From Siphonodentalium dalli (lineage: Eukaryota > Mollusca > Scaphopoda > Gadilida > Siphonodentaliidae), in contig CP136061.1 of the NCBI GenBank assembly GCA_032622095.1, positions 7,326,734-7,390,733 of the forward strand: a DNA stretch of 64,000 nucleotides. Reading direction: 5' to 3'. The position numbers and the translations under genes were made by a program. The notes under the pieces are model-generated. The model saw only the letters and a list, made by a program, of their open reading frames with translations, did no database searches and was not told where the DNA came from. Positions 8,601 to 56,984 of this stretch are shown here, in pieces; position 1 is the stretch's first letter, and every line of letters begins with the position of its first letter.

Positions 8601-11425
8601 ATGGGTGGCGGGATGGGGGGGGGGGTGGGTGGGATCTCATTAGACTCCTTCTTATTTATGTGGGCAGTAGCCTCTATACGGGCGCCTGTGGCGCATAAGA
8701 TACTATGGGTGGCGGGATGGGGGGGGGGGGGTGGGTGGGATCTCATTAGACTCCTTCTTATTTATGTGGGCAGTAGTCTCTATACGGGCGCCTGTGGCGC
8801 ATAAGATACTATGGTGGCGGGATGGGGGGGGGGGGGTGGTGGGATCTCATTAGACTCCTTCTTATTTATGTGGGCAGTAGTCTCTATACGGGCGCCTGTG
8901 GCGCATAAGATACTATGGGTGGCGGGATGGGGGGAGGGTGGGTGGGATCTCATTAGACTCCTTCTTATTTATGTGGGCAGTAGTCTCTATACGGGCGCCT
9001 GTGGCGCATAAGATACTATGGGTGGCGGGATTGGGGGGGGGGGGGTGGGTGGGATCTCTTTAGACTCCTTCTTATTTATGTGGGCAGTAGTCTCTATACG
9101 GGCGCCTGTGGCGCATAAGATACTATGGATGGCGGGATTGGGGGGGTGGGTGGGATCTCATTAGACTCCTTCTTATTTATGTGGGCAGTAGTCTCTATAC
9201 GGGCGCCTGTGGCGCATAAGATACTATGGGTGGCGGGATGGGGGGGGGTGGGTGGGATCTCATTAGACTCCTTCTTATTTATGTGGGCAGTAGTCTCTAT
9301 ACGGGAGCCTGTGACGCATAAGATACTATGGGTGGCGGGATGGGGGGGTGGGTGGGATCTCATTAGACTCCTTCTTATTTATGTGGGCAGTAGTCTCTAT
9401 ACGGGCGCCTGTGGCGCATAAGATACTATGCGTGGCGGGATGGGGGGGGGGGGGTGGGTGGGATCTCATTAGACTCCTTCTTATTTATGTGGGCAGTAGT
9501 CTCTATACGGGCGCCTGTGGCGCATAAGATACTATGGGTGGCGGGATGGGGGGGGGGGGGGGTGGGTGGGATCTCATTAGACTCCTTCTTATTTATGTGG
9601 GCAGTAGTCTCTATACGGGCGCCTGTGGCGCATAAGATACTATGGGTGGCGGGATGGGGGGGGGTGGGTGGGATCTCATTAGACTCCTTCTTATTTATGT
9701 GGGCAGTAGTCTCTATACGGGCGCCTGTGGCGCATAAGATACTATGGGTGGCGGGATGGGGGGGGTGGGTGGGATCTCATTAGACTCCTTCTTATTTATG
9801 TGGGCAGTAGTCTCTATACGGGCGCCTGTGGCGCATAAGATACTATGGGTGGCGGGATGGGGGTGGGTGGGATCTCATTAGACTCCTTCTTATTTATGTG
9901 GGCAGTAGTCTCTATACGGGCGCCTGTGGCGCATAAGATACTATGGGTGGCGGGATGGGGGGGGGGGGGGTGGGTGGGATCTCAATAGACTCCTTCTTAT
10001 TTATGTGGGCAGTAGTCTCTATACGGGCGCCTGTGGCGCATAAGATACTATGGGTGGCGGGATGGGGGGGGGGTGGGTGGGATCTCATTAGACTCCTTCT
10101 TATTTATGTGGGCAGTAGTCTCTATACGGGCGCCTGTGGCGCATAAGATACTATGGGTGGCGGGATGGGGGGTGGGTGGGATCTCATTAGACTCCTTCTT
10201 ATTTATGTGGGCAGTAGTCTCTATACGGGCAACTGTGGCGCATAAGATACTATGGATGGCGGGATGGGGGGGGTGGGTGGGATCTCAATAGACTCCTTCT
10301 TATTTATGTGGGCAGTAGTCTCTATACGGGCGCCTGTGGCGCATAAGATACTATGGGTGGCGGGATGGGGGGGGGGTGGGTGGGATCTCATTAGACTCCT
10401 TCTTATTTATGTGGACAGTAGTCTCTATACGGGCGCCTGTGGCGCATAAGATACTATGGGTGGCGGGATGGGGGGGGGGGGTGGGTGGGATCTCATTATA
10501 CTCCTTCTTATTTATGTGGGCAGTAGTCTCTATACGGGCGCCTGTGGCGCATAAGATACTACGGGTGGCGGGATGGGGGGGGTGTGGGTGGGATCTCATT
10601 AGACTCCTTCTTATTTATGTGGGCAGTAGTCTCTATACGGGCGCCTGTGGCGCATAAGATACTATGGGTGGCGGGATGGGGGGGGGGGGGGTGGGTGGGA
10701 TCTCATTAGACTCCTTCTTATTTATGTGGGCAGTAGTCTCTATACGGGCGCCTGTGGCGCATAAGATACTATGGGTGGCGGGATGGGGGGTGGGTGGGAT
10801 CTCATTAGACTCCTTCTTATTTATGTGGGCAGTAGTCTCTATACGGGCGCCTGTGGCGCATAAGATACTATGGGTGGCGGGATGGGGGGGGGTGGGTGGG
10901 ATCTCATTAGACTCCTTCTTATTTATGTGGGCAGTAGTCTCTATACGGGCGCCTGTGGCGCATAAGATACTATGGGTGGCGGGATGGGGGTGGGTGGGAT
11001 CTCATTAGACTCCTTCTTATTTATGTGGGCAGTAGTCTCTATACGGGCGCCTGTGGCGCATAAGACACTATGGGTGGCGGGATGGGGGGGTGGGTGGGAT
11101 CTCATTAGACTCCTTCTTATTTATGTGGGCAGTAGTCTCTATACGGGCGCCTGTGGCGCATAAGATACTATGGGTGGCGGGATGGGGGGGTGGGTGGAAT
11201 CTCTTTAGACTCCTTCTTATTTATGTGGGCAGTAGTCTCTATACGGGCGCCTGTGGCGCATAAGATACTATGGGTGGCGGGATGGGGGGGTGGGTGGGAT
11301 CTCATTAGACTCCTTCTTATTTATGTGGGCAGTAGTCTCTATACGGGCGCCTGTGGCTCATAAGATACTATGGGTGGCGGGATGGGGGGGGGGGTGGGTG
11401 GGATCTCATTAGACTCCTTCTTATT
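5665..11425. repeat. G-rich minisatellite, about 55 units of 99-113 bp
   Basis: Each unit runs ATTTATGTGGGCAGTAGTC, then TATACGGGCGCCTGTGGCGC, then ATAAGATACTATGGGTGGC, then GGGAT followed by a G run of variable length, TGGGTGGGATCTC, and ATTAGACTCCTTCTT. Unit length varies mainly through the G run (about 5 to 15 G). The stretch GGG-N4-GGG-AT-G(n)-T-GGG-T-GGG satisfies the G-quadruplex pattern several times over in every unit. Open frames in both strands are an effect of the repeat and vary with the G count; I do not call them genes. The array sits inside the gag-like region. Confidence 0.97.
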
Positions 11426-12187
11426 AAAGTAGAAGAGCTCGAGGAGGTCGAGGAGCCCGGGACTCCAGACGAGTTGGACGACAGAATATCCCGGGTCATA
11501 AATGGCCGACATAGCACCCCAGATGGGAAACTGGGATTCAGACAGGACCCACCAACTAAAAGGACCCTTGGTCAGTCTTCGGGTGTGGATAGGGATTTCC
11601 TATTCAGAGTAGTCCGATCTGGACAGACTAGAAGAGGTATTGGACTCATTGTCTCAGAAAGTGTGCAAGCTGGAAAAACGGGAGGACTGGGTCAAACTGA
11701 CAGTCGACTCACGACTAATGAAATTCAAAGCGACAATGGACTCGACTTTCAGTTTCAGAAATTTCAAAGAAGATTTCGAAGAACACAGCAACCAAGCACG
11801 GAAAGACTTCGAGGAACGCCTGGAGGCCATGCGGGGTCGATGGCTGTCGAGGGTTGGGGCAGTCCCATATTTAAACAAACGAGGGTCACACCCAGATTCC
11901 TAGGGGTGACACGAAACGACCGAGGCCAATTGAACGGGATGGAGGAAGATTGGTTTCAATGCAGCTTTGGGCAAGGGCCCAGAAGTGACCGTCCAGGAAG
12001 GTCAGAACATAGATGGAGGACAGAACCAAAGCAGTCACTTTCAGGGGGTGACCAGGACATACACCTCGCGGAGAGGCATGGTGCTTCCACATCTTTTCTC
12101 AGAAGACAAAGGTCGCCTCATAAAATAGACGATGTGCAGGAACACTTACCACCAAGACCCACTTTGTCACAAAGAGACTTCATTTAA
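11426..12187 (+). pseudogene. Gag-like coiled-coil fragment, frame-shifted
   Basis: The sequence after the minisatellite opens with an acidic stretch (KVEELEEVEEPGTPDELDDR) in one frame. From about 11619 a second frame encodes LDRLEEVLDSLSQKVCKLEK, then a FKEDFEEHSNQARKDFEERL helix. The heptad-like pattern and charge suggest a capsid-type coiled coil. The two frames switch around 11610 and stops then accumulate, so the gene is broken. Together with the helix-hairpin-helix piece at 4.8 kb and the LTR-like pair it is best read as gag of one element. No CCHC knuckle, protease, RT or integrase is visible. Confidence 0.45.
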
Positions 12188-14000: not shown

Positions 14001-14447
14001 ATACAGTTTGCCGTTGTGCATACATCTGATGGGAATATTTAGTGTAAACATTATCAATTTATCTGATATATATGTTTCTTTTGTGTTATAGTTTGTTCTA
14101 TTTGGGTGTAAATAAATGTAATAAACCACGATATATGCCTATGACTTTGCGTGCTGTTATATATAAGCCGTGGAATAAATAATTTGTTTCTCAACAGGTT
14201 AGTCAGTGTAAACACTATTTTATTATGGGTATTTCCTCTGATGTACAGATAATATAAGAAAAAAATGACACACCAATACAATGAGCAGCAATTGTGAGAG
14301 GCGATATCGGTGAGAGATGCTTAATTTGTTTATTATTCGATAATATTTGAAACATACCTCTGTTTTAATTCCTTTTTTTCGGCACAACAATTTATCGCCT
14401 TGCTTTCTCAATTCATCTTTCAGTTGTGCCAAGTTCATTTCATCACA
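14001..14447 (+). repeat. Host repeat, left part, interrupted by the Polinton
   Basis: 447 bp starting ATACAGTTTGCCGTTGTGCA and ending in CATTTCATCACA, nearly identical and in the same orientation as 24859-25306. The Polinton terminal repeat starts at the next base. Short shared frames in the two copies simply reflect the duplication. Confidence 0.9.
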
Positions 14448-14735
14448 CGACAGTTAGCAATTTGAACTACAGTGTCATTGACATAAAAAGGTCGTTTTCA
14501 ATTGCTAACTTGCACCGACTACAAATAGATTTTATTTGCTAACCTGCACCCTATAAATAGAATAGTCGTTTTCAATTGCTAACTTGCACCTACTATAAAT
14601 ATAATATTATACTATAGTACGAGTGTAAATATGACCTCATTGACCTGATGTTGACATTATAGTTCGAGAGTATTTAAAAAAGCGCGCCCCCACCCCCTCC
14701 CCCTTTTTAAAGGGGATGGGGTTTAAAATGGGGGA
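14448..14735 (+). repeat. Polinton left terminal inverted repeat
   Basis: CGACAGTTAGCAATTTGAAC is followed by GCACC(T)ACTATAAAT, ACTATAGTACGAGTGT, and then C-rich/G-rich tracts (CCCCCTTTTTAAAGGGG). These features recur in order, inverted, at the right end. The left copy has an extra internal duplication (three GCTAACTTGCACC blocks), so it is longer than the right copy. Confidence 0.88.
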
Positions 14736-14782
14736 ATGGGGGAGGTAAAAAAAAAAAACACAAAATTTGTTTTAAAAATGTT

Positions 14783-15278
14783 TTATCCTGAATGAATATG
14801 AGGATAGCGGATAAGTTTGTTTCTGATATCCATAAGAATTTTTCCAAGAAGATTGTCACCGATCCATTTCTCTTGATAATATGCACATGGATCTGAAGAA
14901 GAGAATCCGATTCCCCAATTAAGATCCGTAGGTGATGCTTCAGCGAGAATCTTCGGATAGGTCGCCACAAGACAATCTCCGAATTCTTTGATTTGTGTGA
15001 ATTTTGCTTCCACACCGATTTTCATTATGGTGTAGGAAACGTCTGACCAAACATCGGTATCGAAGTTTCTCACTGTTCTTCCGAATCGTTTAACTTGTCC
15101 AGGATTGTATATCGAGATGATTTTCTCAGCTGTCTTATAATCGTGAAAGTAGAGAGCTTTTTGGTGCTGGTAGTATTGCTCGACACAGTTGTAAGTTTTT
15201 TTTATGAACAGTGAATATTCCAGGGTATAAATTTGAGAACACGTTGTATTTCCCGTAGAATGGTAGTATGTCAGCCAT
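14783..15278 (-). pseudogene. NADAR-domain protein (YbiA-like), one frame shift
   Basis: NADAR proteins belong to the YbiA/COG3236 group. They are N-glycosidases acting on riboflavin intermediates or, as reported for some members, removing ADP-ribose from guanine in nucleic acid. Visible family features are an N-terminal FYGKYNVFSNLYPG strand/loop, then VEQYYQHQKALYF with the conserved Glu, and EASPTDLNWGIGFSSSDP, the catalytic-site loop. The C-terminal KWIGDNLLGKILMDIRNKL helix also fits. Length about 165 residues, normal for the family. The chosen ATG is at 15276-15278, 67 bp after the protease stop. The N-terminal strand and the rest are in different frames; the switch falls in an eight-base homopolymer at 15196-15203. 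It is the last gene before the left terminal repeat. The domain call is firm; the function in the element is unknown. Confidence 0.85.
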
Positions 15279-15345
15279 CTCACACGAAGGTCGGGGTAAG
15301 AATGACAAACAAGGTGTTCATGCAATGCGATTTTATATACAGAAA

Positions 15346-15798
15346 TTATGGTTCCAATATAACATGTGTGAACAACAATACAAGTATATAATTGAATCTG
15401 CCTCGATTTTCAAAATATATGAGTGGATTATCAACATTATGTGCAATAGAATACATATAGAACAAACAATATAATCCGCAATTAAAAGAGATAATAGATT
15501 GAATTGTTTTGGTCGAGTAATGCAGTTCAATGCCTGGAAATTGCTCAAAGAAATTGAAAAATGGAGGTGGGGGTCTATCGCCAACGGGATCAAAATAAAT
15601 TAATTTGTCATTTGATGGTCTATAGATAACGATCCAATGTTGACCGGGTTTATGTGATGGATCAGTATTGGCAATAATTCCGTAACCAGCTGGTAAATGT
15701 GTTGGCAATAGATCGCAAGTTGTAACTCTAAATATAATATCCCAAACTTTTCTATCTCTTTGAGCAAGATGTTCTATGTCGTTAGTGGTAAGCATCAT
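15346..15798 (-). CDS. Polinton adenain-like cysteine protease
   Basis: A maturation protease of the adenain (C5/Ulp1-like) fold, expected to cleave capsid precursors. The 150-residue frame shows the triad region in order: His in GQHWIVIYR (about residue 54), Asp in LIYFDPVGD (about 70), and Cys in NCGLYCLFYM (about 107). Its start overlaps the capsid-gene stop by four bases (15795-15798), a typical tight coupling. It seems unbroken. The C-terminus is slightly short and ends in a hydrophobic stretch that could be altered. Adjacent capsid genes agree with the assignment. Confidence 0.88.
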   Translation of the reverse strand: MMLTTNDIEHLAQRDRKVWDIIFRVTTCDLLPTHLPAGYGIIANTDPSHKPGQHWIVIYRPSNDKLIYFDPVGDRPPPPFFNFFEQFPGIELHYSTKTIQSIISFNCGLYCLFYMYSIAHNVDNPLIYFENRGRFNYILVLLFTHVILEP

Positions 15799-17104
15799 AC
15801 ATAATCTTTGTACACGCCTCTATTGCTGTCTATTTCGATAGTATTGTCATACTCTGCATATACGATAACGTTGATGGTGTCGGGTAACGCCTGTTTAAAT
15901 TGAATGAATAGTTTTCCACTTCCTCTTTTCTTCGGTCTAAATGCACCAGAATCAGCTTGTTGGTCTGCAGTTCTATCGAAACCGAACGTGCTGTAACCGT
16001 TGGTAAAATCGTCATACGATATTTTTACATCATCTGTAGAGTAATCTTTATTGATCGAGTTCAGGAAACTATAGTAGGATGTGGTGTAGCGTTTATCGCC
16101 GACGTTTTGCTTGTAAGGAATTCCAATTACACTTTTTCCGTTGATCGTGAGATCTACTTCTTCACAATCGTAATGTTTAAAATTGAATGGTGAGCTGTCG
16201 AGTGATCCGTTATATGAGCTGTTTTTAACAAAAGCTATAATGACACGTTTTGGAAGTTGAGCATCACCTAGAAACATGTTATCATTAGTGAAACTTTGTT
16301 TTCCCTGCGCAATAGTAAACGAAGTAAGAGAAACTCTGTTAATCGGATACAATGCTCTAGATCCTGCAATGAGTTTCGACATTATAGAATTTGATTCAGT
16401 GTCACTAAGTTCAACGGTTCTAACGAAAAAGTTTGCCGAGTCTATACTAATTTTGAATGGTCCACCCTTTCCTTGCAATGCAAATTCTGGTTTGGTCCTG
16501 TACATTTTGACTCTGACTTGAACTCCCGGAAGGTTGAGTCTTTCTTGAAAAAAAGTATCGCAATGGAGTCTTCCAGTTAGTTGAAACATTTTAGGTGTCG
16601 TTTTATTCGCCTTCAGTGTAATGTTCGTAATTTTCCTCTGTCGCGTTTCATCATCGTACGGCGTATCCAGCGTCCCAGCTTTTTGTTTGATGAACATGTC
16701 TGTGTTGGCTAAGGAATTTTCAGTGCACGACGACAGTAAATTTTCAATGTAACTCCTGCAATGATATCCTCTGCCTTCACTGACTTCTTATGCGTTGAAT
16801 AACACATCAACTCATTCGAACATCGAGTGTAGGAAATTGTTAGTCGTGACTGCTTTGTTATCATTATCAAAATCCGTGCCATCTGATCTTGAAATTGTGA
16901 CATCTAACTGAATGAACGATTTCGTCAGATCGAGCCAATGACCTGCAGGTCCTTCGAAGGCAAATTCTAGTAAACCATCATATTGGTATCCGTGGTTGCG
17001 GGTTGTTTCTCGATGTATACGCCATCTTCTATAGTAACGATTGTCGGTGGCATAGAAAACAAATCAGTTTCTGATTTCCCGCAGCACTCTGATTGTCGAT
17101 GCAT
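15795..17104 (-). pseudogene. Polinton major capsid protein (double jelly roll), broken N-terminus
   Basis: The double-jelly-roll capsid protein that builds hexon-like capsomers. A 300-codon frame (15795-16697) covers the C-terminal two thirds. It contains NRVSLTSFTIAQGKQSFTN, LPKRVIIAFVKN, then an F-x-H-Y-D segment and a KVIGIPY-like segment, all standard for metazoan Polinton capsid proteins. The N-terminal third is present but spread over successive frames between 16700 and 17104, with a stop at 16967-16969, a change near 16820 and another near 16710-16760. I infer an ATG at 17102-17104, three bases before the upstream peptide's stop at 17107. At least three lesions make this copy non-functional as assembled. 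Confidence 0.88.
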
Positions 17105-17106
17105 GA

Positions 17107-17481
17107 TTATGAGAAGATATCCCTCGATTTTTTCTTCTTCTTTTTTCGTTGCGCAACCTTCGATTGTTTAGATCGTTTTGATTGTTGAATACTGTTGTTC
17201 TGGCTTTTACGCTTTCTGCTAAGATTTTCCGTGGCACCAGATAAGATATCTCGAGCTGCCTGTTTACTTCTGTCAGAAAGTGCACTTTTTAAATCTTCGC
17301 CAGCTAAAAGATCGTGACCGACATTCGCCACTGTTTCAAGTCCTTTGGACAGAATGGATTTTCCAGCTTTTCTGGCGAGTGGCGATACGATTCTTGCCAT
17401 TTTGCTGAAGAAATTTCCGACGCCATATCCTCGTTGATTCCGTTGACCGACGTAAATAGGAATTGACCGCCCTACATGCAT
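17107..17481 (-). CDS. Basic virion-associated peptide of Polinton
   Basis: A 124-residue intact frame starting MHVGRSIPIYVGQRNQRGYG, then GVGNFFSKMARIVSPLARKA, and ending in a Lys/Arg-rich tail (KVAQRKKKKKKSRD). A small basic protein directly upstream of the major capsid gene, with a short N-terminal leader and a Gly-x-Gly site that could be cut by the protease, is a constant part of metazoan Polintons. It is compared with adenoviral core/pX-type peptides and presumably binds DNA inside the particle. The cleavage and DNA-binding roles are inference. Confidence 0.7.
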   Translation of the reverse strand: MHVGRSIPIYVGQRNQRGYGVGNFFSKMARIVSPLARKAGKSILSKGLETVANVGHDLLAGEDLKSALSDRSKQAARDILSGATENLSRKRKSQNNSIQQSKRSKQSKVAQRKKKKKKSRDIFS

Positions 17482-17516
17482 CTTGCTTTAATGAACTTAA
17501 ACTAGTTCGGTATTAT

Positions 17517-18588
17517 TTATATCAATTTTCTTCTACAGTGAAGAGTGAGTATCGTTCTACCTTGGGATTTGAATTGAATTGGAGCTCCAGTATCATCTGT
17601 GATTTTAATGGTAACAAAAGACGTTTTAGCATCGAGAATAGGAAAGTATTCAATATTTCGGAATTCGTGCATGAAAACTCCCTCATCGCGTTTTCTCGTT
17701 ACAACGGCTAAGAGTTTTGCGTAAGTGTCGCCCACTATACGATTCTGTATCAAGTCACAATAAATAAAGAATACGAATCTGTTATTTTTCCGCCTTGCTT
17801 TTTATAATCTAATTGATAATCGTTTTTCAAATTGAATAAGCGACCTAAATTGGAATCTCGTTTATACTGAATGAAAGCATAAGCCCAAATTTTCTCAATG
17901 ACTGAGCCTGCCTGAGTTTAGAGAATGTGATGCAATAAATATCACCGGAACAAATGATTTTGGTAAATAGTATATTACTGTCCACGAGATTCTCGATAAA
18001 ATCAGGATACCGATCTTGATGGTTGGAAAATTCTTGTTCTCCTACATGTTCGATCATACTTTCTGAAAGTTTATTAGTGTTCATAACCTTCTTGGTTTTT
18101 CTCGAATAGACTTGAATCATTTTCCGTTGAACCGTAGATATGAAATTTGGCAAATCTTCTAGCTTTTCCGAATTCAGCGGGAAATGAAGAGCATACTCCA
18201 GAGTGAGATAATCTTTGGATTCCTGGTTAGATGGTTTGTTCTCTTGAATGCTATCAGCAATCAGTGTTGCAACCACATTTCTGTTAACTGTAATAATCGG
18301 TTTTATGGGTTGTTGTCCTATTAACACTGACGCCAAATGAACAGTTATGGTGCAGGCTGGAGATTTGTCATCAGTAATGGTCAAGTCCGATAAACCCTGA
18401 ACCGGTTCATTCCAATCAGCTGGTAGAACCACTCGATTGAGCCCGACTTCATATTGGTCATGCGGTAGATCCATTATTTGTGGCAACTGGACAGTGTACT
18501 CGCTCAGAGTGTTGCCAGTAAAGGTATCCATACTGGCATTGGATGGTAATGTCAATGTGAATTGTTCAGAGTTTGCTGTGGCTGCCAT
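17517..18588 (-). pseudogene. Polinton penton-like minor capsid protein, broken near the C-terminus
   Basis: The single-jelly-roll vertex protein. The N-terminal frame (17845-18588, ATG at 18586-18588) contains FTLTLPSNASMDTFTGNTLS, the hallmark start of metazoan Polinton minor capsid proteins, then LPHDQYEVGLNRVVLPADW. The C-terminal part lies in another frame (17517-17753) with VFMHEFRNIEYFPIL and ITDDTGAPIQFKSQGRTI, the usual closing strands. Between 17753 and 17880 two frame changes separate these parts. The start overlaps the end of the membrane-peptide gene. Confidence 0.87.
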
Positions 18589-18841
18589 TTCTTGATTTTC
18601 GGTGATGGCACAAATATCCAATACAGCTAGATAATAAGGTTATCCACAGTGGACTGTTGGCACCGTTCAAGCTCAAATTAACAATCGATACGATGCTTAT
18701 AATGTAGATCAGGAGGACTTGTGAAGCGAATATAATTTCTCCTGATGGTGCACGTTTTCCAAATCCAATGTTCCAGTCAGGCATTCCATCAATCACTGCT
18801 TTCTTCGCTTTATCGCCTCCACGTTTTGTTTCGATATCCAT
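18566..18841 (-). CDS. Polinton small membrane protein
   Basis: A frame of about 91 residues from the ATG at 18839-18841. It has a tail-exposed MPDWNIGFGKR segment, one strong hydrophobic helix (IIFASQVLLIYIISIVSIVN) and then LSLNGANSPLWITLLSSCIG. A helix followed by S-P-L-W-I-x-L-L-S-S-x-I-G-Y-L is conserved in a small ORF next to the minor capsid gene in metazoan Polintons. Its start overlaps the integrase end by 49 bp and its end overlaps the minor capsid start. The last dozen residues are unlike the usual ending and may be shifted. Function unknown, possibly a virion membrane protein. Confidence 0.75.
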   Translation of the reverse strand: MDIETKRGGDKAKKAVIDGMPDWNIGFGKRAPSGEIIFASQVLLIYIISIVSIVNLSLNGANSPLWITLLSSCIGYLCHHRKSRNGSHSKL

Positions 18842-19881
18842 GAATTGAAATTGGGAGGATACCCTAACCACTTGACGAGTACTTTGTCACCTTTCCTTCT
18901 GATAATTTTTTCAACTTCCTACAATTTATTAGGTTCGACAGTTACTGGGTTAATTCTTCATTGTAAAATGTACCTTTGATTTCTTCGTCATTATAATCTT
19001 TCAACTTGTACACATTTGGAGTTCTATTTGACACCATACTTTTTACCGTAAAAATTTCGTAAGTGTAATTGGGTTCATAACCTTTGGCAAATTTCCCTTT
19101 AAACTTGTTGATTCTCACAGTTTGACCAGGTTTGAATTTTATTTTTTTCGGTAAATTTCTCTGCTATTTTTGGGCAACCAAAACTTCGTCGGCAATCTCA
19201 ACCACATCCTTAAGTGCTTTTCCGATAGATGGATGAACTCTAGAGTTGTAACCATTGACAAAGTCAGACAAAACGTCTATGTAACGCCTCGTTTTGAATT
19301 TGAGGAAATATTTTTCCAATTTTTGTTTTAGAGTGCGTTGAAACCGTTCTACAATGGCAGCCTTAGTTATTCTATTTTCAGTCGAATAGAGATGGATATT
19401 ATTACTTTTCAGTAAATATTTGAATTCGCGGAGAGTAAATATTTGAATTCGCGAAGAGTTTACATTTTCGTTCAGTTAAAAGTTTTTTAAATGCTTCTAC
19501 CAAACTATAGGCGTGTTTAGTTTTAATAGGAATTACCCATGCGTATCTAGAAAACACATCGATTACACATAACAGATAACGAAAACCGCTATTGTCCTGG
19601 CTGTATTTGGAATAGTCAGTCAAATCAGCTTGCCAAATATGATCCTTTCCGGGAGAAATAGTCCGAGATCTTTGAAACTTTTTACGAGCTGGTGCATGAA
19701 TCGTGTAAACATCTTGCGCCGATAACCAATCAGAAACACATTTCTTGCTGATGAGATGTTTCTTAGCAGCCTTAACTAAATCCTGTTTGCTTCCGAAAGC
19801 GATAGGGCTTTTAGGATCGATATACAAATCCTCAAGAATCATATCCCCATCTCTCCCAGTCTGTGACTTCTTCTCTACCAT
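18793..19881 (-). pseudogene. Polinton integrase with chromodomain, catalytic block lost
   Basis: A retrovirus-type DDE integrase. Seen in order: the N-terminal region, WQADLTDYSKYSQDNSGFRY with the first catalytic Asp, VIDVFSRYAWVIPIKTK, then AAIVERFQRTLKQK with the catalytic Glu, the SH3-like FKPGQTVRINKFKGKF, and a C-terminal chromodomain (VEKIIRRKGDKVLVKWLGYP). The second Asp normally sits in a TDKG-x-EF motif. Here that block is missing, and a 24-bp segment encoding REFKYLL is duplicated at 19410-19455. Further frame changes occur near 19410, 19150 and 18950. I chose the ATG at 19879-19881; a 27-bp direct duplication lies just upstream. Confidence 0.87.
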
Positions 19882-20043
19882 ATTTCTTTCCTTTTTCACT
19901 GTGTGACCGTTTGTGACCTTTTTCACTGTGTGACCGTTTGTGACCACTTATCGGAACATGTTTCTCTTTCAACTCTCTCGCACGATGAACATTCCTATGT
20001 ACGAAACTGGAACATCAGATTTTATCAATGACTGTTTCAGTTC

Positions 20044-20553
20044 TTACCAATTTGGAAGTTCTTTTTTTGATTTTTGTCCAACTCGTTTTGGAACGAGATC
20101 ATCCAAAACGGTTGACAGTTCTCCAACAGGTTTCTCGGATATTGACAACTGTCCAGAAGAATCCCAACGAACTTCGGGGTTGTACTTTTTCAGATGATCC
20201 AATAGTTTCTGAGCTTTCTGTTTCGAATAAAGCGGTAGTGCCGATATAGCATTCTGTTCCGTCTGGTTTATATCTCTGACTTTCGGTTCTTGTTTGTTCA
20301 CAATTTCAACTGGAATAGGTTTTCGTGACTCTAAATCACTGTGTCTTTTAGCCGTTTCAAAACTCTCTTGAAGTTCGTCCAATTTTCTGTGTTTCACAGA
20401 TGGAGGTATATAGTTATTTTCACTGACATCAACAATATTGTTCTTTATTTCTGACATCTTTTCGCGTTCTATAGATGTGTTATCCTTTGAATTGGTTTTC
20501 ATCTCCAGAAACGTTCTGTAGAGAATAAGAACCATTTTATTCACTGTTTCCAT
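20044..20553 (-). CDS. Polinton accessory ORF, 169 residues
   Basis: Intact frame with an N-terminal charged half and a conserved C-terminal module: YSKQKAQKLLDHLKKY, then VRWDSSGQLSISEKPVGEL. Metazoan Polintons often carry an ORF with a helix of the K-A-x-x-L-L-x-x-L type, followed by W-(D/N)-x-x-G-x-L/I and a basic tail, as here. Function is unknown; the gene stays with the capsid/packaging block. Start taken at the first ATG, ten bases after the upstream stop. Confidence 0.65.
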   Translation of the reverse strand: METVNKMVLILYRTFLEMKTNSKDNTSIEREKMSEIKNNIVDVSENNYIPPSVKHRKLDELQESFETAKRHSDLESRKPIPVEIVNKQEPKVRDINQTEQNAISALPLYSKQKAQKLLDHLKKYNPEVRWDSSGQLSISEKPVGELSTVLDDLVPKRVGQKSKKELPNW

Positions 20554-20562
20554 GCTTTTTTG

Positions 20563-20934
20563 TTAGAAGAGTTTCTCAATCACGTCTCCAATTACTGGTG
20601 CCAGAGCTCCCAATAAACCGAATAAAAGTGGATTCCCGCCTTTCTGAATGACACGTTTCCTGGTACCTAATTTTAACTTCTTGTCAGCAATTTTTCGAAT
20701 ATCTGTTTTGAATTTCCCTAACTGTTTCTTCTTCACTGGAGATATCTTGATATTTCCACGCAGTAACTGGTAACAACACTCTCCTAATGCATTTATACTG
20801 TTTTTGTTTAAGAACTTCTCGGAACCATTCTTCAACTCAGAATACATCTTTCGGATATTGTTTCGAAGCTTCTTGTTCGGTTTTCTGCTTTTTTTCCTCG
20901 CCATGTTCACACGATTGAAAACTCTCTCATCCAA
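20563..20934 (-). CDS. Polinton basic protein with GG-hydrophobic tail, 123 residues
   Basis: Lys/Arg-rich protein ending in KRVIQKGGNPLLFGLLGALA and a hydrophobic tail. A Q-(K/R)-GG motif before a hydrophobic, amphipathic C-terminus recurs in metazoan Polintons and related adinto-like viruses. There it is thought to be a protease-processed, membrane-active virion peptide; that role is inference here. Its 5' end overlaps the upstream 187-residue ORF by 28 bp. Confidence 0.65.
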   Translation of the reverse strand: MDERVFNRVNMARKKSRKPNKKLRNNIRKMYSELKNGSEKFLNKNSINALGECCYQLLRGNIKISPVKKKQLGKFKTDIRKIADKKLKLGTRKRVIQKGGNPLLFGLLGALAPVIGDVIEKLF

Positions 20935-21470
20935 TTTTCGTCAGGGTTCTCGTCCCTGTTCTGTTCAAGAAGTTCATCTGGTAATAATTCCGAAAAATTG
21001 TTCAATATATAGTTTGGATCTGACGATTCTGGAGATTTGGATGGTGCAGGAAAAATATCCGGAACAGACGTTCTACTAGGTTTCGGATTAATCCGAACTT
21101 TTCTCTTCTTCGTGGGAACTCTGTCAGCAATAGTGTCTCTGTGTAATTTCGAGTTGATTCTGTCTTTCCATTTGAGCACCATTTTCACTAATATTCCGGC
21201 TACTGTTCCAGTTCCGCCTCTTGATAACAAAAAATTAAGCTTTTCTTTATTGTTAGCACGTGGATCAGCCAATTTCCTTAATTTATCTTTGTTCCGTTTG
21301 ACCCAATATCGCTGTTGCTGCATCATCGGTATTCGCAGTTTCAGAATCATCCCAGATATGAATCCGAAATATTTCAAGAGTTGTTCGTTCTCTTTCCCTA
21401 GAAATATCTTCTGCCGTTTCGGATCTTTTTCCAAAGAAAGTGTTTCAGCCAAAAGTTTGTTATCTCTCAT
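20907..21470 (-). CDS. Polinton accessory ORF, 187 residues
   Basis: Intact frame, basic overall, with an N-terminal helical part (LAETLSLEKDPKRQKIFLGK), a central NFLLSRGGTGTVAGILVKMV segment, and an acidic C-terminal tail. I do not recognise a family. RGGTG followed by a hydrophobic run could be another protease-cleavage and membrane element. It overlaps the ATPase end by four bases and the next gene by 28 bp, so it belongs to the same compact transcription unit. Confidence 0.55.
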   Translation of the reverse strand: MRDNKLLAETLSLEKDPKRQKIFLGKENEQLLKYFGFISGMILKLRIPMMQQQRYWVKRNKDKLRKLADPRANNKEKLNFLLSRGGTGTVAGILVKMVLKWKDRINSKLHRDTIADRVPTKKRKVRINPKPSRTSVPDIFPAPSKSPESSDPNYILNNFSELLPDELLEQNRDENPDENWMREFSIV

Positions 21471-22085
21471 TTTGGGTAGTACACGATCGGTGACGTAGAA
21501 AGAACTTCGGACATCAGTCTCATCGAATCTGGTGTTTGGGACGAAACATCCACCATTAAATATCCGTATGGACGAGAAATTGCATCAGCGTATGCTTCTT
21601 CTACACTTTTCATCATCCCGAGTTGACGTCCGAGTGTACTAACTTGATCCCTGTTTCTGGGTGATTTGAACAGAATGAAATATTGAGTGTTGAGTGAAAT
21701 AGTTCTTATATCCTTGAGAAACAGATTCTGTACAACGAAAATGACGCTAGTGTTCTCGTGATGAGCTCTCTGTGTGAACCATTCTGTTATTGATTTCAAG
21801 TCACCATCCATACTGTCATCAAATATCAACAAGTTCGGTTGAGAAGTATCAAAACTGTTGTCAAATTTTTTCTGGAACCTGACACCTTTCATTCGTAACA
21901 GCTTTCTCGGCACATCATCGTGAGGACAAACATATACAATCTCTTTCGGTGATGGCGTGATAACATAATTTTTTTCGAATAACCAATTCTTCGATAAAAG
22001 TGGATTTTCCACTCATGGATGGTCCTCCAATTAACATGGTGAACGGATGTTTGAACGAGGGTTTAAAGTCTGTAATTTTCTCCAT
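21467..22085 (-). pseudogene. Polinton packaging ATPase (FtsK/HerA type), one frame shift
   Basis: Genome-packaging ATPase. The N-terminal frame from the ATG at 22083-22085 has the P-loop GGPSMSGKST. The downstream 181-codon frame has Walker B in NLLIFDDSMD, then SVIFVVQNLFLKD and LNTQYFILFKSPRNRDQ, a conserved pair of strands in the poxvirus-A32/Polinton clade. The C-terminal RPYGYLMVDVSSQTPDSMR also fits. The two frames switch at a seven-base homopolymer at 21969-21975. With that single lesion the gene would be of normal length (about 205 residues). Confidence 0.9.
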
Positions 22086-22090
22086 CTTTC

Positions 22091-22240
22091 TCAAAAATAA
22101 TCTTGTAACTGAGAAAAGTCTAATCCTGCAGAGGTCAGAGAAGAATATAGAACATCGAAGGTAGGCGGTTGGTCTTTTATTGAATCCTGGTACCCGAATG
22201 GTACAGTGTTAAAATCACTGTTCACGATCCTCTTGTCCAT
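22091..22240 (-). CDS. Small ORF upstream of the ATPase, 49 residues
   Basis: From an internal ATG at 22238-22240 the frame encodes MDKRIVNSDFNTVPFGYQDS and ends LDFSQLQDYF, five bases before the ATPase start. Tight spacing and its place at the head of the minus-strand gene block suggest it is translated. The frame stays open upstream to 22294. No family recognised. Confidence 0.4.
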   Translation of the reverse strand: MDKRIVNSDFNTVPFGYQDSIKDQPPTFDVLYSSLTSAGLDFSQLQDYF

Positions 22241-22294
22241 GGTTAGTTGTAATTTTTGAATTTTTGATTGTGAAATATACTCAACAATCACCAA

Positions 22295-22725
22295 CAGATT
22301 AGAGGTCTGGTTCCCACCATTGTCTGCTTGGTGTAACGAGAACCATATGCCTTTTGAATGTGACTACGTATGTTGCATAACTATACCTGACCTAGTTCCC
22401 ACCAATGCATGTAATGCATACCATATGCCGATTGAATGTCACGGTGACTATACGGTTGCTGCATAACTATACCTAACCTAGTTCCCACCATCGGTTGCTT
22501 TGTAAACCCCTTGTCTAGACTTTTTTTTTCTAGACAGTGACCGGATTCCCCCCTGACTTGCAATATGCAGATCATATGTGTCCTAGATAAGGATACAGTG
22601 ACCACATGTGTTGATCAATTGCCCTAGAAAATAATTGCAAACCTTTACCATTTTTGCACCGTCCTATATTCGAAAATTGTGGTGACTGTCTTATGCTTAC
22701 AAATAATAGCTCAGCAAAATTTTTA
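22295..22725. promoter_or_regulatory. Divergent promoter region with imperfect tandem repeats
   Basis: Lies between the minus-strand gene block and a plus-strand gene. It holds two to three imperfect copies of a roughly 100-bp unit with GTTCCCACCA, GCATACCATATGCC and GTTGCATAACTATACCT blocks. Its position suggests a shared control region; this is inference. Confidence 0.45.
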
Positions 22726-22728
22726 CCC

Positions 22729-22735
22729 TATAAAA
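22729..22735 (+). promoter_or_regulatory. TATA box of the plus-strand Polinton gene
   Basis: TATAAAA, 56 bases before the ATG at 22791. The spacing fits a short 5' UTR of about 30 bases. Confidence 0.6.
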
Positions 22736-22790
22736 TAGTTGGAACCGGGAACTTCACATTCATTCTGCTCGAAAAACTCAAACTCTCATT

Positions 22791-22869
22791 ATGTTTAGAC
22801 AAATGCAGATTTACAAGGATCTGAAGAAGCAAATCACTGACTGCAAATTTATCATTGCAAAGACGGAAG
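22791..22869 (+). CDS. Exon 1 of a small spliced gene at the Polinton right end
   Basis: ATG-started exon encoding MFRQMQIYKDLKKQITDCKF plus a few residues, ending GAAG before a perfect donor GTAAGT in phase 1. A TATA box precedes it. Joined to exon 2 it would give about 57 residues with an N-terminal amphipathic helix. No family recognised. It is the only plus-strand gene of the element and occupies a spot next to the terminal repeat. Confidence 0.5.
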
Positions 22870-22888
22870 GTAAGTTTATTCTTGACTT

Positions 22889-23112
22889 ATTCTGTGCTTC
22901 TCTCCAGCGTTCTCAGACTGCATCCACCGTGTTAAACATTCAATAATTCACGAATTTTTATCGCTTTAGATCGGGACACACGAAACCGCGACAAATTGCC
23001 AGATTATTCTGTTTTGTGCTCTCTAGTGTTCTCAGACGGGACACACCGTGTAAAAAAATTCAATAATTCACGAATTTCTATCGCTTTAGATCGGACACGA
23101 AACGGTGACAAA
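22889..23112 (+). repeat. Intronic duplication of about 110 bp
   Basis: The block TTCAATAATTCACGAATTT, then ATCGCTTTAGATCGG, preceded by a GTGTTCTCAGAC-like stretch, occurs twice in a row within the intron (about 22889-22998 and 23005-23112), with several differences. Confidence 0.75.
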
Positions 23113-23440
23113 ATAATTCAATGCTAAACTGGTCGCTCAAAATGCATAAGCGAAGTAAATTACCCAGTGCAGTAAAAACACAGCTGTGCGTTCTCCCGTA
23201 CTTTCTCAGTACAGTTAATTGGTTTTCCCTGTTATCACCTGTATTCCGTTTTATCATCCTATATCATGTATACACGCTATATATATTGTTAAAGAGGTTC
23301 GACATAATATGCGATAAGGGGGTGGGGGTCTTTGAACGTGTACAATAATTACACGTATATTTGTCATTGTTAAAGAGGGTTCAACATTATTTACATCCTT
23401 TTTTGGGGAAATCTACAAATTATTTTTTCTCTTTTTCCAG

Positions 23441-23535
23441 AAACATTCCCGATTACGAAGGAGGTGTGTCATGGGTTCGATGAGAACCTAGAGGAGTATC
23501 AGACATGTGGAGGAAGAAAAGATGCGACAATGTGA
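23441..23535 (+). CDS. Exon 2 of the small spliced Polinton gene
   Basis: Follows a strong acceptor (pyrimidine run TTTTTTCTCTTTTTCCAG). In phase 1 it reads ETFPITKEVCHGFDENLEEY, then a Cys-Gly-Gly segment, to a TGA at 23533-23535. A different frame beyond the TGA (from about 23505) is open and protein-like (STVYFLQGLERDFARENIK), so the real gene may extend to about 23650 with a frame change. No family recognised. Confidence 0.45.
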
Positions 23536-23628
23536 CAATAATGCGACATGTCAATTCAACAGTATATTTTCTACAAGGACTAGAGAGGGATTTTGCGAGA
23601 GAAAATATCAAACTCTATGATAAGCTGA

Positions 23629-23799
23629 GACCCCATTTTTACCCCCCTTTTCAAAAAAGGGGAGGGGAGGGGAGGGGCCCGCTCCCGCCCGCCAACTACA
23701 TCAGGGGATCAATATATTTACAAAAATAACACTCGTACTATAGTTCTAATTCTATTTATAGTAGGTGCAAGACACTGTAGTTCAAATTGCTAACTGTCG
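23629..23799 (-). repeat. Polinton right terminal inverted repeat
   Basis: Reading inward from 23799, the complement starts CGACAGTTAGCAATTTGAAC, then GTGTC, GCACCTACTATAAAT, ACTATAGTACGAGTGT, and a C-rich/G-rich tract, mirroring the left end in the same order. Confidence 0.88.
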
Positions 23800-23811
23800 T
23801 GTATACACTAC

Positions 23812-23880
23812 TAACTACGATAAATATATGTAAGAACATATAGGACCTCTCTAAATTCTGATCGAAAATATACTGTTGTT
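23812..23880 (+). repeat. Host repeat, right part, after the Polinton
   Basis: 69 bp (TAACTACGATAAATATATGT and onward) identical to 25318-25386. In the second copy this segment follows the 447-bp block after only about ten bases, showing that the Polinton interrupts a continuous repeat here. Confidence 0.9.
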
Positions 23881-24858: not shown

Positions 24859-25386
24859 ATACAGTTTACCGTTGTGCATACATCTGATGGGAATATTTAG
24901 TGTAAACATTATCAATTTATCTGATATATATGTTTCTTTTGTGTTATAGTTTGTTCTATTTGGGTGTAAATAAATGTAATAAACCACGATATATACCTAT
25001 GACTTTGCGTGCTGTTATATATAAGCCGTGGAATAAATAATTTGTTTCTCAACAGGTTAGTCAGTGTAAACACTATTTTATTATGGGTATTTCCTCTGAT
25101 GTACAGATAATATAAGAATAAAATGGCACACCAATACAATGAGCAGCAATTGTGAGAGGCGATATCGGTGAGAGATTCTTAATTTGTTTATTATTCGATA
25201 ATATTTGAAACATACCTCTGTTTTAATTCCTTTTTTTTCGGCACGACAATTTATCGCCATGCTTTCTCAATTCATCTTTCAGTTGTGCCAAGTTCATTTC
25301 ATCACATTTACGACCCATAACTACGATAAATATATGTAAGAACATATAGGACCTCTCTAAATTCTGATCGAAAATATACTGTTGTT
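24859..25386 (+). repeat. Second, uninterrupted copy of the host repeat (empty site)
   Basis: 24859-25306 matches 14001-14447 and 25318-25386 matches 23812-23880, separated by only TTTACGACCCA. It therefore looks like the pre-insertion state of the Polinton target, in the same orientation about 1 kb after the filled copy. Confidence 0.88.
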
Positions 25387-28221
25387 GGTTAATTATACCA
25401 CTGCTGCTCTTATAGCCACTTATCGCTTGGAGTTACTCAGTTATCGCTTGGACCGACTTTGCGTATAACGCCGCCAAGCGCAGACAGCCGCAGATAACCG
25501 ACTCCTATCTCTCATTGGCATGTGTACGATATAACACACAGACAGACAGAACAGGTTAGAACTGGTTTTGAAACGGCAGTCAACGGCAGTCTGTTAAGCC
25601 AGATAGTGACAATAAAAGCAATTACTGCGGGTAATGCTCAGTTTAATTTCAAGGCTAAGTATATGAGCTACTTATAGAATTGAACACACACACACCCAAA
25701 TAAAGAAACAGGATATTTCGATATCTATTTAGGCCATGAAGAACTAACAGGTTAGACCAGTTTGTAAAGATAAAGTACCCACTTATATCTCCGATCAACC
25801 GGCGTCAAGGGTAAATACGTTTGAGATCTCTCACCGTCGATGTCGACTGAGGAATTCATTTACACTGTGAAAAATTCCATTTCGGGTTAATCCGAGCACA
25901 TCCACAGAAAATGTTTGGAGAGCGCGCACTGTGGATTCGAAATTGAGAGCAAGCTCTGTGGTTTCTGTTATACATATAGAACACGCAACATGGACATATA
26001 TGTCTCGCACTCAAAGGGGATTTATGAGACTAACATGTACCAATTTAACATTTAAACGGTAAACAAATCACAAGGTGCAGACACCCACTGGCTTTTACAC
26101 ATTGGAGTTTAAATAATTATTGTGAAAAAAATGTTCAAGCTTCGACGGTGCCCAGTTAGTATTGGACGATACACGATTTAAACAGCTACACTAATTGTGG
26201 TAAGTTCATGGCGGAACATGCAAATATTGGAATAGCATTGACAGTAACAACATATTATCTACAAACTTTCTGTCGAGGACAGTTAGTTCATGTATCGACT
26301 CGTTTTTATCCTCAAATGTCACAAATTCACAATTCAGCGTAGAGTTATGACAAGAATTTCACTTTAGAATAATCGCATTACGGTTAAATTAATTGTCTGA
26401 ACTATTCTTAAGAATAGTGGATAATAACTTCAAAATAGTTGCATTACGCTTAAGTGTAATTTATTGAATAATGATGAAGCGTAATTGAGAACAACGCTTT
26501 AACATAATATTTCGTTATGATTAAGCATAGTTGGCTGAATTATTCTCAACTATTTTTGTCATTATTTTTGGAAAAATTCTTTACATTCCTGTAATTGACG
26601 GGCAGCCTTGTGATAAATATATAGATATAATCGTATTAGTGTCTGGATTTTGACGGAATTATCGGACGAGATTTGTTGGCGGAGCATTACATCGATTGCG
26701 GGACGAGGGGTATCGCGTTCCGCCAATAAATCAAGTGCGATAATTCTATTTTTATTACATATCTATCTCCGTATCATAGTAAGTTGACTCACAATCGTAC
26801 ATCTCAGGTACAGAAAATGTGAATTTAATTGAGTTTTAACCGCATTTAGGGTTAACGCAATAATCAGACAGGGAACTCGTCTATCCATGAGTGGCCTTCA
26901 CCCATCTTGACCCGCGCAAAGGTGTTAATTGGGTTTTCCCAGCTTTTCCAAAAATATAATCCAATCAGTGCGCTGCGAGTTCGGCAAGTAAGTTATCGCC
27001 ATTGCGTTGAAAAAGTAAAAATAGTAACGGCGAGAACCAGTCTAACAACACTGAATGAAATAGTTCCGTCGACAGATTGCACTATAGTGCGATTCTGAGA
27101 ATTATCACACATCTGGAAACTCGTGCGATCATGCGAATTACGTTGATAGATATGCAATAAAATCTAAGGCTTGGGACTTCGTAGACGTTTTATAAAGAGG
27201 GAGGAGAAATAAATGAACACGATACTGAAGTTATGTCTCATCTTACCAAACTCCGGGCATGGTTTAATTACCTCCCTTGATGACTCGGTAAGACCGCTGT
27301 TATCGGCGACATTTCACTTACATTTAGTGGACTTCCGCGATATTAAAATATATACCAAGCAAGCAGAGCAAAATGCTGCCCTTATTAAGCACACACAATA
27401 TCGGACAAAATTTGTGTGGTTTCGTACCTTAACTTTGGAAAATTCCACCAGAACCAAAGAACTATATTTTGAAACGGTGTGATTTGGTGCTCAGATTATT
27501 TTATTAGCACAAAAGTCTAAACGCACATGGACGACAACGTCCCGACAATACGCATTGAAAGTCAAACACAAGAGTTCTAATTTGTACAATTTTGATAAGT
27601 TGCTTGCGAAAATCGTCAACAAAACTACCGCCCTGATCCTCCATTTTGTTATTAAGTTTTTAGTGCGGGAACATAGGAAAGTTGACTCTGGGGCGATCGC
27701 TTTTCGCCATTTTGATTGGAAAATCCCGCGCTAAATATAGAAACGGCATACTAGTACTCAGCCGGTTACAGAGTCTGAAAGGAAGTATGACTGGTACCCA
27801 GCCGGTTACAGAGTCTGAAAGGAAGTATGACTGGTGCTCTCTGGTAGAGATTGTTATCTTACATCACGATAAGACTATAACTGTTGAAAGTGATATAACG
27901 CCGAATTAATCAGCTAACTCACTTCACTGGTTAATTATTTATGTCCATGACTGTTTAACCACGTATCATATTGAACAACGTTGTTCATTACTCTCCATGT
28001 AAATATGGATATGTTAACATGTTGATTATACTGACAATCTAATGACTAGATATTATTCCGGCTAAAAGTTCAAAGAACCACCTTACACGTGTGGTGTTTG
28101 TCCAACTATTTATATGAAGATGCCCTACAAAGTAATATATGAGTCCTCCACAATTGTGAATCTAGATTTTAAATGAGATAGGTCAAATTAAGCAGAGTCC
28201 ACAGAAGGCAGGGAGCACATA
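25387..28221. other. AT-rich region, no gene recognised
   Basis: I see no convincing exon. One exact direct duplication is present: a 35-bp segment containing CAGCCGGTTACAGAGTCTGA occurs twice in a row at about 27760-27830. Short frames around 26.9-27.9 kb have no recognisable content. Confidence 0.45.
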
Positions 28222-39738: not shown

Positions 39739-39895
39739 AATAACGCCACAGACTGGAATGCACTAATTTAAATCATGATCTTCACAGCAATAATTTGAGA
39801 GATAGCCCATTATGCATATGTGTCATATGTGGTTCCAAAGAAACAGCAGAACATTTCTTTTGTATTGTCGTAGATTCTCTACTGAACGAAATAGG

Positions 39896-44648: not shown

Positions 44649-44861
44649 AGCAACTTAGTTACGTGGAAACTGCGAACTGTCTCTGAAAGAGGATATAGAT
44701 ATTTTTCTGAGGGTTCAAAATTTATATTGTTGTCTAAACGATTCTCAAATTGATCTTTCCCTAAGTCGCCCTCTGTATAAATAAATACAAATTCATGCCC
44801 ACACATAAAACAAGTTAAACGTGTAAAAACACATTATCACATCGACGTGACCAAATATGCA

Positions 44862-54495: not shown

Positions 54496-54744
54496 CTAGA
54501 ATTTCATGTGGCGTGTTATATTCAACATGATTACATGATCAGCTGCGGCATATAGGTGCATGAAATAGAATCCGACACCCGGCATACATGCAATCATTTG
54601 GTTTGGATATCATCAATCGTGTTGTGGCATATTGATGAACCGATTTACAGACCGAGAAAGATTAAATCCACTCGCTTTGCAAATGATTATTAACTACCAA
54701 ACGTTTGAATAATGTGTCCTTTTATGTATTACCTACCGAACGTA

Positions 54745-56455: not shown

Positions 56456-56984
56456 TCGTCTGGTTACATGCAGTGAACGTGGCCGTATTCCATACCCTAT
56501 GACGTGCAAAGTCTGAACAAATCACAGCTTTGACATTCGCTTCATGTTGAACAAGCATTGTGTCTCTGTAATTATTGCCTGTATAAGTAAGTCCATTACT
56601 GCACTGAAAATCTCGTTTACTAACATCTTATACAACAATTACTCAAAGTCGGTGTAATTATATTTCGAAACAATGTTGTTCACTGAACTAGTTCTACTCA
56701 ACGATTTTACTAAACGGTCTACTCACATTTGAAGTCGAAATTGATCGAGTTACTGTACACAATCGTTGTGCAATTCTCTATTAACTGGGACTGAAAAATG
56801 TAACTAACGTTGAGAAGTCATCCGTCATTGAGTTCTTGTTACTCAACCGCCGAATACAATGGTACAGCGGCCTTAACAAATTATCACCCACCTGCTGAGC
56901 AGACATTTTAGTTAACATGATTTTCCGTGTAACCAGTAGAACGCTATACATCGTTTATTGAACCGTATATTCTGAGCAATAAAA
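56456..56984. other. No gene recognised
   Basis: AT-rich sequence after the 48-bp array, nothing identified. Confidence 0.4.

Follow-up and report, generated by a model that had tools for sequence, protein, structure and literature searches.

A probable dead, internally deleted copy of a NADAR-carrying Polinton family in Siphonodentalium dalli

Positions 14447-23812 of a 64,000-nt stretch of Siphonodentalium dalli contig CP136061.1 (referred to here, in its entirety, as the window) hold a Polinton/adintovirus-like element bounded by terminal inverted repeats. Very probably, this is a dead, internally deleted copy of an endogenous, adintovirus-like Polinton family of approximately 17 kb, for which NADAR is an accessory gene of the clade; the portion of this account concerning anatomy and lineage, namely that the element is an internally deleted copy of a PolB-bearing family, is close to certain. 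The features recognised in and beside the window copy are as follows:

14447..14606, no strand: left terminal inverted repeat without its outermost 12 nt, plus subterminal repeats of ~45 nt
14786..15278, minus: NADAR pseudogene (body 14786-15202; N-terminal 28 codons, 15195-15278, in another frame)
15346..15798, minus: adenovirus-type cysteine protease, open, 150 aa (PF00770, 5.3e-7; 93% to the sister copy, stop-free)
15798..17104, minus: major capsid protein (MCP; predicted double jelly-roll), broken by one frame change and 2 stops
17107..17481, minus: open 124-aa ORF within the capsid block, no assigned function
17520..18588, minus: penton-position gene, split over three frames
18796..19881, minus: rve integrase, broken by frame changes and 2 stops (C-terminal chromodomain in the sister copy)
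19835..20553, minus: 232-aa conserved protein, broken
20563..20904, minus: 113-aa basic protein, open
20907..21470, minus: 187-aa conserved protein, open
21467..22085, minus: A32-type packaging ATPase (Pox_A32), broken beside the P-loop region
22094..22258, minus: PolB remnant reduced to the C-terminal 55 codons (94.5% to sister PolB residues 546-600)
22258..22306, no strand: internal-deletion junction, ~6.7 kb gone relative to sister copies L027/L039
22307..23761, no strand: right-arm non-coding region, common to sister copies
23762..23812, no strand: right terminal inverted repeat, outer end retained
25280..25340, plus: empty copy of the flanking repeat, revealing the target site abutting the right end

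The original prediction described a compact Polinton with a full virion-building set and an integrase. Protease, ATPase, MCP and integrase are all recognisable, but the set is non-functional, the frames of the NADAR, MCP, penton-position, integrase, ATPase and 232-aa genes being broken. The integrase core matches PF00665 at 1.6e-7 (32.0 bits against a cut-off of 32.6), while the L027 integrase matches rve at 3.7e-9 and Chromo at 1.1e-4 (22.5 bits, under the cut-off of 25.1). Similarly, the window ATPase matches Pox_A32 at 3.9e-4 (20.4 bits against a cut-off of 22.8), and an open sister ATPase does so at 4.1e-6. The window MCP shares 95% identity with its counterpart in a sister copy, an open MCP of 436 aa that is in turn 36% identical to an F54H12.2-like protein of Ciona; the predicted fold of the latter (pLDDT 88) matches the capsid proteins with a double jelly-roll from PBCV-1, Sputnik and mavirus. 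Via this modelled relative, the family MCP is assigned as a predicted double-jelly-roll protein. The penton claim fared less well, as gene order alone places that gene and its sole Pfam hint, FAKV_Clamp (PF24159), is weak (0.001, below cut-off). Scans of viral contigs with the MCP, the NADAR and an MCP alignment confirmed no relative.

Both terminal repeats were found, as predicted, with 90% identity over 41 nt (14445-14485 and 23762-23802); however, the left repeat lacks the outermost 12 nt present in sister copies, and the right boundary lies at 23812. Target-site evidence for the window copy consists of the right junction and the empty site only, the latter matching the element flanks at 98.2% over 447 nt and 98.6% over 74 nt. 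Inverted repeats together with a 6-bp target duplication were observed at L027/L041, L022 and L025; no target duplication was seen at L019 or L026.

The supposed absence of PolB holds for most of the gene, but its last 55 codons persist next to the ATPase; across a single junction, the window copy has been deprived of the rest, together with the right-arm genes. In six sister stretches, the ATPase is followed by PolB, and sister PolBs match PF03175 at 1.4e-22 and 1.4e-19. One copy, C7:26397834-26414716, is the only PolB-bearing example read from repeat to repeat: it measures 16.9 kb, carries both repeats and a 6-bp target duplication, and displays the window gene order with PolB and NADAR in place. 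Between its inverted repeats, the parent family encodes PolB, an integrase with a chromodomain, an ATPase, a protease, an MCP and NADAR. Loss of the polymerase is the decay of one copy and not a trait of the lineage. The compact PolB-less lineage previously envisaged is rejected, since sisters carry PolB at the same breakpoint; because PolB follows the ATPase in these sisters and lies between the repeats in the one read from end to end, the suggestion of a satellite of a larger Polinton is likewise unsupported for the window copy.

The family resembles Polinton/Maverick elements and adintoviruses in its inverted repeats, 6-bp target duplication, PolB (PF03175), rve integrase with chromodomain, A32-type ATPase, adenovirus-type protease and double-jelly-roll MCP; an integrase with a C-terminal chromodomain serves as a Polinton/adintovirus criterion in the available portion of PMC11071296. 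Unlike these systems, the window family has NADAR occupying the terminal slot past the protease. A sister family at L042 shows the same gene order, with no NADAR within the 9 kb read. A literature search found no report of NADAR in Polintons, although its absence from print is weakly supported; the term does not occur in the main text of PMC11071296 or PMC11071308, on adintoviruses and preplasmiviricots. In the accessible sections of a survey of viral NADARs (PMC9503650), phages, NCLDVs and invertebrate RNA viruses are covered, and Polintons are not among them. The element NADAR resembles the viral NADARs described there in being a viral accessory gene, standalone as in DNA viruses.

The presence of NADAR beside the left end was borne out: the frame 14783-15409 (minus strand) matches PF08719 above its curated cut-off (E 1.3e-41) and, by alignment, retains the catalytic E, K and E, though it is broken in a short A-run. 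This split rules out an intact NADAR in the window, and the start as first drawn gives a 180-aa frame with no ATG and with its N-terminal stretch out of frame. Nor is the gene peculiar to this copy; it is present at 16 loci of the window family, adjoining the left end wherever that end is readable. An open NADAR of 164-166 aa occurs in 6 of 14 copies examined, with a full-length domain (2.5e-45, profile 3-162), and the full open frame is missing in the other 8. As in NADAR/YbiA proteins (PF08719), the catalytic K of these sequences follows the E at a distance of seven residues, and the YbiA-type glutamate is present; in L027 numbering, K40 and E113 are invariant across 35 sequences and E33 is conserved in at least 90%, the residue roles being taken from the consulted part of PMC11543638 and mapped by spacing.

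Among the PolB loci listed, 10 of 71 have a NADAR within 20 kb, and all are found among the 15 with at least 52% PolB identity (versus 0 of the 56 below); the remaining 5 related loci have none within that distance. A second, distant Polinton-like family has NADAR in 9 copies; in every one of them, a 98-100%-identical integrase is encoded 3.3-8.0 kb from NADAR, on the strand that carries it. From these sequence patterns, NADAR most likely serves a clade of Polintons as a recurrent accessory gene, with a probable role in counter-defence.

Could the window element nevertheless be a true polymerase-less satellite, mobilised in trans by PolB-bearing relatives? Other shortened copies with both repeats do exist, including two of 5.0 kb that lack PolB and integrase and have a 6-bp target duplication, as well as a 0.5-kb stretch bearing repeats (L037). 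However, the shortened copies (L019, L022/L025, L026 and the window) differ in the parts they miss, the two 5.0-kb copies have common flanks and thus probably represent a single insertion duplicated later, and a deletion after insertion would leave the same target duplication. Given also the PolB remnant, broken genes and damaged left end of the window copy, this alternative is very improbable. It is also rather improbable that NADAR is functionless passenger DNA captured from the host. A source would be at hand, in that the genome contains, besides 26 unassigned NADAR matches, an open frame of 816 aa that comprises four NADAR domains, and many element copies are broken; breakage in 8 of 14 is expected of old copies, yet is compatible with weak selection too. 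Against capture of a useless gene, amino-acid change between lineages is far below synonymous change, which is saturated (pN 0.28-0.41 vs pS 0.77-0.85 in 6 between-lineage pairs), although within-family pN/pS is noisy (0 to 1.06, with few changes). Moreover, two element families carry NADAR, and the element sequences form a supported clade (98/92) separate from the four-domain frame; the tree disfavours derivation from that frame, with deep placements unsure owing to long branches.

As for what an intact NADAR may do, the element enzyme would act as an N-glycosidase during infection or transposition, freeing the guanines of element DNA (or RNA) from ADP-ribose and thereby undoing the work of a host or rival ADP-ribosyltransferase. 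By analogy with NADARs that hydrolyse guanine-ADPr in vitro (PMC11125620, PMC11543638, as far as the available text extends), guanine de-ADP-ribosylation is a possible, if tentative, assignment of activity and substrate. That this virus-like Polinton clade keeps a dedicated NADAR N-glycosidase for counter-defence is a more doubtful proposal; the available text of PMC11125620 cautions that in vitro activity is no guarantee of rescue in cells. Unlike the DarT-linked guanine-ADPr hydrolases, the window copy is frame-broken and has no linked ART toxin gene recognised among the ORFs scanned; a search for a Scabin-like (PF22596) DNA ADP-ribosyltransferase partner gave no match, with the control equally silent. 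Soluble ADP-ribose signals or nucleotide/flavin intermediates, instead of modified nucleic acid, would be somewhat less likely targets. Soluble targets have been proposed for phage NADARs, and a ribosyl N-glycosidase activity in riboflavin biosynthesis is cited, in the consulted part of PMC9503650; however, the same source takes macromolecular ADP-ribosylation to be the main target of the NADARs found in eukaryotic RNA viruses, and all E. coli and phage NADARs assayed, according to the portion of PMC11125620 available, hydrolysed guanine-ADPr.

These results correct a tempting misreading, in that the short PolB-less Polinton here reflects decay and does not represent a novel class of satellites. 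According to the accessible text of PMC11125620, NADARs are present in many metazoans, including molluscs, and their animal roles are unclear; the present case raises the question of what share of the NADARs listed as animal genes sits inside such elements. If the counter-defence proposal is true, guanine in Polinton nucleic acid would be ADP-ribosylated by rival elements or by eukaryotic hosts, probably animals. The recurrence of NADAR in the virus-like elements of one genome offers a testable setting for pitting an element enzyme against a predicted host nucleic-acid ADP-ribosyltransferase.

The window element is a decayed Polinton/adintovirus-like copy carrying a NADAR gene (PF08719). The element and its surroundings comprise the following features:

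6001-12000: segment of 53-55% GC with strong GC skew (0.32-0.40); its neighbours have about 36-45% GC
14447-23812: the element, with all of its virion, integrase, ATPase and NADAR genes on the minus strand
14445-14485 and 23762-23802: program-called terminal repeats, 41 nt, 90% identical
22094-22258: last 55 codons of the type-B DNA polymerase (PolB), the only part of this gene present
near 24859-25390: unoccupied second copy of the repeat that flanks the element
39766-44700: tandem array, 32-bp period, 97-99% identity among the inner copies listed, GC about 52-53%
54687-56516: tandem array of units about 16 codons long; three of its reading frames stay open for more than 550 codons

Pfam matches in the window lay above the cut-off for NADAR (1.3e-41) and adenovirus endoprotease (5.3e-7), and slightly below it for the integrase core rve (1.6e-7; 32.0 bits versus 32.6) and the packaging-ATPase profile Pox_A32 (3.9e-4; 20.4 bits versus 22.8). 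Sister-copy proteins matched NADAR (2.5e-45, profile positions 3-162), rve (3.7e-9), Pox_A32 (4.1e-6), PolB (PF03175; 1.4e-22 and 1.4e-19) and, below its own cut-off, Chromo (1.1e-4). A Pfam search of the 436-aa capsid protein returned no match; at E <= 1e-3 it had 58 protein matches, including an F54H12.2-like protein of Ciona (36% identity). The predicted model of this Ciona relative of the sister-copy major capsid protein (MCP) (pLDDT 88.0, pTM 0.86) matches the double-jelly-roll capsid proteins of PBCV-1, Sputnik and mavirus.

Alignment of sister proteins to the window indicated that this copy is dead. NADAR is split over two frames, the integrase lies in three pieces with 2 stops, and a 232-aa gene lies in two pieces with 1 stop; the 124-aa, 113-aa and 187-aa genes are open. 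Of the full virion-building set originally described, the protease is open, but the MCP (two frames, 2 stops), the ATPase (two frames) and the penton-position gene (three frames) are broken, and the last is named solely by its place in the gene order. Neither the N-terminal piece of PolB nor the three right-arm ORFs tested had a match in the window.

Twenty stretches around left-end matches, chosen from 49 such matches, were surveyed for sister copies. PolB sequence, open or broken, comes after the ATPase in six of them (L024, L027, L029, L030, L031 and L032). From L027, PolB runs on into stretch L039, followed by the right-arm ORFs and, in L041, the right repeat; this element (C7:26397834-26414716, 16,883 bp) has the same 6 bp at its left and right flanks. 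The match between the window and L027 ends at 22257/22258 and is picked up again at 22307, which corresponds to L039 position 4904; thus, about 6.7 kb is missing, and the PolB-less state of the window copy is, on sequence comparison, a deletion. The six sister stretches and the retained PolB codons speak against the PolB-less lineage originally proposed. Shortened copies miss different parts: L019 has most virion genes gone but retains PolB in its N-terminal half, and L022 and L025 are without integrase and PolB. The losses look like independent events. L022 and L025 (C9:210.34 and 210.48 Mb) are 5.0-kb derivatives. Their flanks and target duplication are the same, and they probably go back to a single insertion that a segmental duplication copied. 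L037 (C4:118443000-118445000) is a MITE-like derivative in which two inverted repeat copies are separated by about 0.5 kb.

In sister copies, the outer ends of both repeats extend 12 nt beyond the program call; these outermost 12 nt are kept on the window's right repeat and missing from the left. The flanking repeat is 98.2% identical to its unoccupied copy over 447 nt on the left and 98.6% over 74 nt on the right. On our reading of this occupied-empty comparison, the target site adjoins the right end, which implies a short post-insertion deletion across the left junction.

NADAR is a lineage trait that recurs in other copies. A Pfam search of the host genome (9 contigs, 2.23 Gb), in which 91 candidates were scored, returned 58 NADAR matches. 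Judged by genomic position, 16 belong to the window family, 9 to a second family, 4 to one host-like frame, 2 to loci with 58% PolB and 1 to a locus with 73% integrase, with 26 left unassigned. The PolB search gave at least 74 matches, merged to at least 71 loci after 3 second pieces of loci already counted were dropped (lower bounds; 73 of 1899 candidates scored). Among the loci listed, 10 of the 15 with PolB identity of at least 52% have a NADAR at a distance of 20 kb or less, against none of the 56 below 52%; NADAR is missing from this range at the related loci C5:224026817, C3:297509552, C5:259818131, C5:226933080 and C5:227234986. As PolB identity is just 58% at two of the ten NADAR-bearing loci, the association either predates the window family or had more than one origin. 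The genome also contains very many similar-scoring and mostly open copies of a roughly 950-aa PolB family (e.g. L009-L011, L043), including two that lie 7 kb from each other on C5. The sister family at L042 (C1:137919300-137928299) shares the gene order (MCP 52%, integrase 46% identical), and a direct reading of its DNA places a short zinc-knuckle frame after the protease; neither tblastn nor profile found NADAR in the 9 kb read, in which the element end was not located. Its MCP, protease, penton-position, integrase and ATPase frames are open.

The NADAR frames of the second family, nine in number and dispersed, are about 193 aa long; seven have no stop, and two compared directly are 99% identical. 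Beside all nine, on the same strand, lies an rve integrase (98-100% identical), at 3.3-3.4 kb in eight cases and 8.0 kb in one. In the 150 integrase matches listed (3039 candidates), a NADAR within 20 kb accompanies 10/10 at 98-100% identity (two sharing one NADAR), 1/51 at 59-77% and 0/89 at 37-39%. At L044 (C3:112975500-112984499), this integrase carries a chromodomain (3.2e-9) and is accompanied by an ATPase with 32% identity to that of the window family, a PC4-domain ORF (4.7e-11) and NADAR (1.4e-38). Since neither terminal repeats nor matches to capsid genes of the window or L042 family were recognised within its 9 kb, membership of NADAR and integrase in one element is drawn from their conserved spacing. 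This second, Polinton-like family has NADAR at L044 and eight further loci, and its copies are probably young because their integrases are 98-100% identical.

In the NADAR tree, the window family pairs with C3:37621329 and the second family with C3:174345942, a NADAR near 58% PolB. Both families, their partners and database protein P0073 form a clade (98/92) that excludes a probable host gene (C7:123564544-123566715, plus strand), an open frame of 816 aa in which four NADAR domains stand in tandem; two of these domains, compared with each other, are 89% identical. In an earlier tree built before the extra genome rows were added, the two families were neighbours (98/47). Given this different placement and the long branches, the trees fit one acquisition as well as two.

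An open 164-166-aa frame from ATG persists in 6 of 14 window-family NADAR copies (window, L019, L021-L032; truncated L020, L033 and L038 left out). Within the family, NADAR pN/pS ranges from 0 to 1.06 (undefined in 1 of 15 pairs), with 1-22 changes per pair, too few to judge; MCP gives 0.17-0.30 (3 pairs). Between lineages (6 pairs), synonymous change has reached saturation (pS 0.77-0.85) against a pN of 0.28-0.41, a pattern that fits purifying selection. Over 35 proteins, three residues are invariant or at least 90% conserved: a glutamate, a lysine at a distance of seven residues from it, and the YbiA-type glutamate. We mapped the catalytic roles given in PMC11543638 and PMC11125620 onto them by residue spacing.

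Both papers describe NADARs removing ADP-ribose from guanine in DNA, and PMC11125620 places NADARs in many metazoans. Among the literature entries listed, no publication links NADAR with Polintons. No partner ADP-ribosyltransferase was found; a Scabin-like search had no match in the host, and its controls were equally silent. A proposed role of the element NADAR is to repair the element's own DNA or RNA after attack by an ADP-ribosyltransferase of the host or of a rival.
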